Origin: Bacteroidota bacterium | Lineage (GTDB): Bacteria > Bacteroidota > Bacteroidia > NS11-12g > UBA955 | DNA length: 64,000 nucleotides | Direction: 5' to 3' | Assembly: GCA_030834125.1 (NCBI GenBank) | Contig: JAURFW010000006.1 | Location: forward strand, 1-64,000 | In this document: one piece after another, positions 15,491-17,140 of the stretch | Position numbering within the stretch: position 1 is the stretch's first letter | Layout of the letters: every line of letters begins with the position of its first letter | The notes under the pieces: generated by a model | What the model was told of the DNA's origin: nothing | Databases searched by the model: none | Seen by the model: only the letters and a program-made list of their open reading frames with translations | Program-made: the position numbers and the translations under genes

Positions 15491-17140
15491 ATGTTCACTA
15501 GTTGGATAATTGAAAAGAACCAACCCACAAATTCAAGTATTGCGTTAATCTTAAAAACTCCGAAAAAATGGAATTCAAACGGTTGGACAGCGGGTCAGTT
15601 TATCTCAATTCAAGTAAATTATGGTAAATCTCAAATTACAAGAAACTATTCTGTAATTGAAGCGGATAACGATAGGATAAAAATATGTATTAAAATAATT
15701 GAAGGTGGACAATTTTCTTCTTGGTTGCGTGTTGCACAATTGAATGAAAAAGTCAAGATTAGTGAAGCAATGGGTGATTTCATACTTCCCAAAAAGCTTC
15801 CTCAAAAAATCAATTTTATTGCCGCGGGGAGTGGAATAACACCAATATTATCGATGATACTTAGTTTGCGATATAAACAAATTACACCAGATTCAATTCA
15901 AGTTATTTACGCAAACCGGAGTCCGAGTGAAGCAATTTATTTACAGGAATTAAAGAATTTATCTGCAGAATTAGGCATTAAAGCATTATTATTTTTTGAA
16001 TTAGATCCATTGGAAAAATCGCAACAGGGAATTTTGACTAATAAAGTTTGTGATCAATTGGTAAAAGCATCGGATCACAATACCTGTTGGTTTGTTTGCG
16101 GACCAAATATTATTTATAATAATTTAGTAAGGTCTTTTGAACACTACAACTTAGATAAAAATAACTTACATACCGAATCATTTAAAACAGAACCACAAAA
16201 GGGTTTTTCTGGAAAGTTTAATTTTCAGGATGCCGGTAAAAATTCTATATTAGATGTTCGAGAAAATGAAACAATTTTAGATGCCATAATTCGTTCGGGG
16301 GAGAACGTTAATTTTCAATGTAAAGCCGGTATTTGTGGTTCATGTATATTGAAGTTAGAGGATGGTTTATTGATAAATTATCGTGGCGGAATTATTCAAT
16401 CTGGTGAAAGGTTTTTATCATGTCAATGTGGCTTGGATAAAACTGGGTATGCTTCAATAACAAATAATACCAGAAAAGTTAAAAGTAGAAATTTTTGGAT
16501 TCGAGTTGCTGCGATGATAGCTGCATTGTTAGTAATAGGAATTAATTTCTCCAATAATGGCGAATTAAAAATGATTGGTTCTTATAACATTGGACATGAG
16601 GATTTAAAATGTGAAGACTGCCATAGAGAATCTGATGGAACTATAAGACAGCAAATTCAACATAATACAAAAACTTTTTTGGGATTGCATGGATCAAAAA
16701 AATATTTAGACATAAAGTTTAAAGCAGTAACAAATGAAATTTGTGAAAGCTGTCATAATCGTCCAAATGATTTACATCCGATTTCAAGATTTAAAGAAAT
16801 TAGGTTTTCTAAAGAACGTGAAACAATGGGAGTTCATGAATGTAAGTCTTGTCATGGTGAACACACAGGTAAGAGAGTTGCTAATATTAAAAATGATTTT
16901 TGTAAGAGTTGCCATTCTAATACAATCGTAAAAAATGACCCTATTCCAGTAACGCATAAATATTTATTTGAAAATAAAAAATGGAATACCTGTATGCAAT
17001 GTCATGATTTTCATGGTAATCATAAATATGTTATTCCCCAAAAAATGAGGGATACATTTTCAAAAGAAAAGGTAAATGATTACTTAAATGGAAAAACACA
17101 ATTATATTCAAAAAAGAAGTTTTACAACTCCACGAAGTAA
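15491..17140 (+). CDS. Fusion: FAD/NAD(P) ferredoxin reductase + plant-type 2Fe-2S ferredoxin + TM helix + pentaheme cytochrome c
   Basis: RNYSVIE (flavin motif), AAGSGITPILSM and WFVCGPNI (NAD(P) motifs), CKAGICGSC...LSCQC (2Fe-2S), FWIRVAAMIAALLVIGINF (TM), then CEDCH, CESCH, CKSCH, CKSCH, CMQCH. Confidence 0.9.
   Translation: MFTSWIIEKNQPTNSSIALILKTPKKWNSNGWTAGQFISIQVNYGKSQITRNYSVIEADNDRIKICIKIIEGGQFSSWLRVAQLNEKVKISEAMGDFILPKKLPQKINFIAAGSGITPILSMILSLRYKQITPDSIQVIYANRSPSEAIYLQELKNLSAELGIKALLFFELDPLEKSQQGILTNKVCDQLVKASDHNTCWFVCGPNIIYNNLVRSFEHYNLDKNNLHTESFKTEPQKGFSGKFNFQDAGKNSILDVRENETILDAIIRSGENVNFQCKAGICGSCILKLEDGLLINYRGGIIQSGERFLSCQCGLDKTGYASITNNTRKVKSRNFWIRVAAMIAALLVIGINFSNNGELKMIGSYNIGHEDLKCEDCHRESDGTIRQQIQHNTKTFLGLHGSKKYLDIKFKAVTNEICESCHNRPNDLHPISRFKEIRFSKERETMGVHECKSCHGEHTGKRVANIKNDFCKSCHSNTIVKNDPIPVTHKYLFENKKWNTCMQCHDFHGNHKYVIPQKMRDTFSKEKVNDYLNGKTQLYSKKKFYNSTK

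Follow-up and report, generated by a model that had tools for sequence, protein, structure and literature searches.

The window, a 64,000-nucleotide stretch of a Bacteroidota genome, encodes at 15491–17140 (+ strand) a protein that begins as a flavin-containing reductase and ends as a multiheme cytochrome c, which raises the question of how electrons from NAD(P)H might travel from one end of this polypeptide to the other. As an earlier note on this DNA had reported, the gene is one uninterrupted open reading frame of 549 residues, with an ATG start and no internal stop codon. Pfam models matched above their curated cut-offs for FAD_binding_6 (residues 8–97, E = 3e-10), NAD_binding_1 (residues 109–207, E = 1.4e-10) and Fer2, the plant-type [2Fe-2S] ferredoxin (residues 246–313, E = 2.5e-7; ferredoxin cysteines C277, C282, C285 and C311), and multiheme cytochrome models matched at residues ~370–510, above-cut-off status applying to the first three models only. 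A single hydrophobic helix lies at residues 335–353 (333–350 in the AlphaFold2 model), and the part comprising this transmembrane (TM) helix and the pentaheme cytochrome c domain (16463–17137, +; domain at residues ~369–549) contains CxxCH motifs at residues 374, 418, 451, 471 and 501. Pfam matches, motif positions and the AlphaFold2 helix together bear out the domain order given in the earlier note (flavin, NAD(P), ferredoxin, one TM segment, five CxxCH), and the topology, with the pentaheme part in the periplasm and the flavin part in the cytoplasm, is implied by covalent heme attachment. The AlphaFold2 model is confident for the FNR and ferredoxin half and of low confidence for the cytochrome half, as expected for a model built without hemes. 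When the window protein is aligned with 13 fused homologues (29–34% identity), the key motifs for FAD, NAD, Fe-S and the five hemes show no or almost no variation, indicating that the fusion is more than a chance event.

The succession of FAD_binding_6, NAD_binding_1 and Fer2 is that of the PaaE/PDR type, an FNR-type reductase with a C-terminal [2Fe-2S] ferredoxin, and phthalate dioxygenase reductase and PaaE-type proteins are among the top sequence and fold matches of the fusion. The nearest solved folds are the reductase parts of self-sufficient P450s, phthalate dioxygenase reductase (2pia, rank 3 by fold) and the reductase domains of flavohemoglobins. The reductase half is a member of the FNR plus ferredoxin group that fits none of the named NCBIfam enzymes: among the equivalogs PaaE, BenC and NADH oxidoreductase PRK10684, the best score was 107 bits (cut-off 383). 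Its FNR part resembles one-electron reductases, both those with a ferredoxin (phthalate dioxygenase reductase, PaaE) and flavohemoglobin. Phthalate dioxygenase reductase and PaaE-type enzymes likewise combine FAD, NAD and, at the C-terminus, plant-type ferredoxin or flavin domains in a single polypeptide; these are soluble and serve oxygenases, whereas the fusion extends to a TM helix and a pentaheme cytochrome.

Besides those of the CxxCH motifs, the pentaheme part contains six further invariant histidines (369, 429, 458, 489, 508 and 511), and all 11 are invariant in the 79 relatives described below, wherever the alignment columns are filled. Every heme could thus be bis-His ligated and able to relay electrons, and such ligation, as read from the sequence, would fit a relay and not a catalytic heme. 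The pentaheme nitrite reductase NrfA was rejected as an identity for this part, since NrfA has a catalytic heme with an open site and the six additional histidines permit bis-His ligation everywhere; the NrfA model (PF02335) also had no match in the window genome. A weak MtrC/MtrF-like profile match was obtained for the cytochrome part.

Three genes follow the fusion in the same orientation, separated by short gaps or overlapping. The first (17148–18374, +) encodes an outer-membrane porin-like protein with a signal peptide; its listed reading frame opens at 17088, the likely start being the ATG at 17148. Seven of the 18 fused loci have a relative in the vicinity of the fusion. In having a multiheme cytochrome adjoining a beta-barrel-like gene, the operon is similar to porin–cytochrome conduits of the MtrCAB type. 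Unlike these, it has no decaheme MtrA-like protein, its barrel matches Alginate_exp weakly (below cut-off) and no MtrB model, and the entry would be NAD(P)H instead of quinol.

The second gene (18358–19185, +) encodes a Tll0287/DUF3365 (heme Cache) protein with an N-terminal TM anchor, which is placed in the Tll0287/sCache_heme family by its match to PF11845 (26.7 bits, cut-off 24.1) and its single CxxCH motif. The only cysteines of this protein are those of the motif, and among 80 Tll0287 proteins of the module no conserved cysteine was found beyond CxxCH and the lipobox. The Cys/His ligation reported for Tll0287 and for a stand-alone protein of P. putida is therefore inapplicable to the module's proteins, and an assignment to the redox subtype by an axial cysteine was dropped. 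Met154 is invariant and His171 near-invariant in these proteins, and either could, to judge from its conservation, occupy the sixth heme site. A PDB sequence search with the Tll0287 profile returned nothing meaningful.

The third gene (19172–19663, +; listed reading frame from the TTG at 19166) encodes a 163-residue membrane protein, a putative transmembrane diheme b cytochrome. The model of this protein (mean pLDDT 92) has five long helices, of which helices 3 and 5 carry H83, H97, H141 and H155, which form two H-x13-H pairs. Both pairs are present in 81 of 81 relatives, and the four histidines are invariant in 41 aligned members that are 17–48% identical to the window protein. Two H-x13-H pairs are the diheme pattern of NOX/MsrQ-type cytochromes b, and sequence pattern and model agree in placing four histidines on two TM helices, as in the ferric reductase/NOX transmembrane domain (FRD). 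The arrangement is that expected of a transmembrane diheme b protein, and by this histidine pattern the protein likely binds heme b; positive charges flanking the helices suggest a cytoplasmic position for H83 and H141 and a periplasmic one for H97 and H155. Pfam Ferric_reduct matched 12 of the 41 aligned members below its cut-off, at E = 2e-5 for the best and in registers that disagree, and none of the b-type proteins checked reached any Pfam cut-off. Foldseek with the model gave no PDB fold at a significant E-value (NOX5 at rank 4, E = 1.1), and a PDB sequence search with the b-type profile gave nothing meaningful.

The earlier note had taken the fusion for an NAD(P)H-oxidising module and a heme wire across one TM anchor. 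Domains and topology agree with this description, but the fusion is not a complete conduit on its own, because a single TM helix without a cofactor cannot pass electrons. The likeliest path thus leads via heme b of the partner protein, and the 163-residue membrane protein probably carries electrons across the inner membrane. We hypothesize, with a probability of about 0.6, that the operon encodes a transmembrane module for electron export driven by NAD(P)H, in which FAD, [2Fe-2S], two hemes b, five hemes c and the Tll0287 heme lead to an acceptor. NAD(P)H would be oxidised on FAD by the FNR part in the cytoplasm, and the FAD would hand single electrons to the fusion's own [2Fe-2S] cluster, from which they would reach the inner heme b of the membrane protein. 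The two bis-His hemes b would provide the path across the membrane, and the outer one would reduce the pentaheme domain, kept beside the complex by the TM helix of the fusion. The monoheme protein of the Tll0287 type would receive the electrons next and deliver them to an acceptor located either in the periplasm or at the outer membrane, so that the fusion would join the entry and the exit of one conduit. The domains, the conserved company and order of the genes and the invariant heme ligands are observed; we infer the heme b content, the outward direction of flow, the formation of this complex and the acceptor. Contact of the reductase with both partners is supported by its fusions, which link FNR to the pentaheme in 18 loci and, separately, to the b-type protein in one (Thiotrichaceae, L082, 332–1810, a direct fusion). 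The L082 reductase has a weak N-terminal match to a BFD-like [2Fe-2S] domain, an alternative attachment of NAD(P)H to the same core.

Fre–MsrQ and SpNOX, which move NAD(P)H electrons via flavin and hemes b to outside acceptors, serve as working precedents for the proposed path, and direct reduction of cytochrome c is reported for SpNOX (PMC5676040, PMC11031084). In the Fre–MsrQ–MsrP system of E. coli, as in SpNOX, the flavin domain delivers electrons to the hemes b of a small membrane protein and on to an acceptor on the outer side, and NOX membrane domains have four conserved histidines, as does the b-type protein. Unlike these systems, the operon has a [2Fe-2S] ferredoxin between flavin and hemes, a pentaheme and a monoheme c protein as its exit, and a flavin half whose fusion partner is the exit cytochrome instead of the heme b protein. 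The molybdopterin partner MsrP is absent among the operon's reading frames, and membership in MsrPQ was rejected for want of this gene.

Relatives were collected by scanning genome_contigs with the cytochrome alignment; 145 were found, the best 80 were examined, and 79 rows, with the window and a Flammeovirga locus included, were classified for the cytochrome tree. Members of Bacteroidota, Gammaproteobacteria and Chloroflexota are represented. In 77 of the 79 loci the genes for the pentaheme, Tll0287 and b-type proteins are clustered on a single strand, the remaining two being cut by contig ends. Within this sample from the best 80 of 145 relatives, the reductase is fused to the pentaheme in 18 loci, encoded separately nearby in 52, fused to the b-type protein in 1 and not nearby in 8. 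The architecture, which had been called unusual, is indeed uncommon (18/79), but it is recurrent, and most relatives have the two parts as separate neighbouring genes. The Flammeovirga plasmid is one such case, with the same functions and with reductase and cytochrome as two genes. Gene order differs between the forms: split loci read Tll0287, b-type, FNR, pentaheme (TLL-CYB-FNR-C5), and fused loci read fusion, porin where present, Tll0287, b-type (fusion-(porin)-TLL-CYB). The gap between FNR and pentaheme genes is 1–21 bp in most split loci (≤100 bp in 44/52), so a small change would suffice for fusion. ResB (14 loci), CcmF-like (4 loci) and HemA (8 loci) genes stand beside some split relatives, the first two belonging to cytochrome c biogenesis.

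That most relatives have two genes could suggest that the window's fusion arose from an assembly or frameshift artefact, as the earlier note had allowed. This is refuted by the 17 further fused loci, which come from 16 other genomes and one of the same genus (G009), usually at ~30% identity and in different assemblies; the fused reductases moreover form one clade (97–98 SH-aLRT) and the fused cytochromes nearly so (two changes needed, with weak branches between), and we give an artefact practically no credence. The tree suggests that fused and split lineages recruited the reductase independently, but the AU test does not reject a single origin (p = 0.35), and separate recruitment is not claimed here. 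The same-genus fusion copy in G009 (L035, 5951–7597) is frameshifted in the FAD/NAD region, through assembly error or decay; intact fusion copies exist elsewhere. On a Methylocystis rosea plasmid (L034, 5248–7695), a protein with FNR and ferredoxin parts and a TM helix precedes a membrane protein that carries two H-x13-H motifs; these two proteins are possibly a parallel system. Clear cases of the module number 1 of 397 genomes in the phylum sample (the window's own) and 2 of 111 genomes of the order, a patchy distribution.

The eight loci that have the cytochrome core and no nearby FNR, in Chloroflexota, Gammaproteobacteria and Sporocytophaga, make another electron donor or the reverse direction possible. 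They would also suit a quinol-linked system, in which the b-type protein oxidises or reduces menaquinone with the pentaheme as its partner in the periplasm, and the FNR half is an addition that supplies the quinone pool or a soluble partner. Among small diheme b proteins, many do operate with quinones. Direct coupling is, however, favoured by the FNR fusions to both partners and by the short FNR–pentaheme distance in 44 of 52 split loci, and only a weak NapC/NrfH-type match was obtained (E = 0.037), which speaks against membership in that type; we regard a quinol-linked role as unlikely.

For the acceptor of the preferred electron-export module, the neighbours of the split clusters hint at nitrogen oxides. 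The Flavobacteriaceae split cluster lies among genes for a NasAB fused reductase, NrtA, NarK, Crp and a single-domain globin, and the Cytophagales split cluster has HemA, globin and CcmF-like neighbours. A single-domain globin gene is found near 51 loci and the assimilatory nitrate genes NasAB, NrtA and NarK near 21–31, as might be expected if the Tll0287 heme bound and reduced nitric oxide or nitrite in the periplasm with electrons fed by the module. In a 2026 preprint, a Tll0287-family member without an axial cysteine bound NO tightly, and a stand-alone member with one looked like a redox protein (PMC12889525); the module's proteins, without a conserved extra cysteine, are similar to the former. 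The globin and nitrate association is, however, nearly confined to split relatives, with globin in only 2 of 18 fused loci and no PF00042 globin in the window genome. The preprint also gives stand-alone members a redox role (PMC12889525), and Met154 or His171 could fill the sixth site. NirK exceeded the cut-off in 0 of 26 module genomes and NrfA in 1 of 26, and both were rejected as general terminal partners (NirK exceeded it in 3 of 109 genomes of the order). Nitrogen-oxide handling is on this evidence a doubtful alternative. Equally tentative is the joint proposal of an undescribed NAD(P)H-powered transmembrane reductase feeding a ligand-binding periplasmic heme, possibly for nitric oxide, whose pentaheme, heme-Cache and diheme b core gained a flavin–iron–sulfur reductase in several ways.

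A catalase-peroxidase (KatG-like) gene (19851–22190) and a divergent LysR (OxyR-like) gene (22264–23214) adjoin the operon, together spanning 19851–23214. Their position after the operon would accord with NOX-like oxidant production or peroxide defence, with O2 or peroxide receiving the electrons. This neighbourhood is not kept in the same-genus locus L035, on which ground the linkage of KatG and LysR to the operon was dropped, and superoxide formation would presumably need no export through six c hemes; such a role seems very improbable.

The export module that we favour consists of known domain types, and a limited literature search turned up no description of their combination or of the conserved module: no paper on a fused pentaheme and ferredoxin reductase was found, nor did a broader search by title and abstract find one. 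The operon looks like a route, so far undescribed, by which these bacteria export reducing power from the cytoplasm. To our knowledge, bacteria have few routes by which electrons from NAD(P)H cross the inner membrane directly, with no quinone involved. A 2024 paper names MsrQ as the sole FRD protein of prokaryotes whose physiological function is clearly identified (PMC11031084). With its conserved core of three cytochrome genes, to which the reductase is attached in variable ways, the module would be a second route of this kind. The module would also give a group of the stand-alone Tll0287 proteins a role, and would offer a compact natural fusion of reductase and multiheme wire for electrode work.

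Elsewhere in the window, an open frame of at least 5,970 residues (46090–64000, +) runs past the window end; PKD-like text in its translation indicates that it probably encodes a giant secreted repeat protein.
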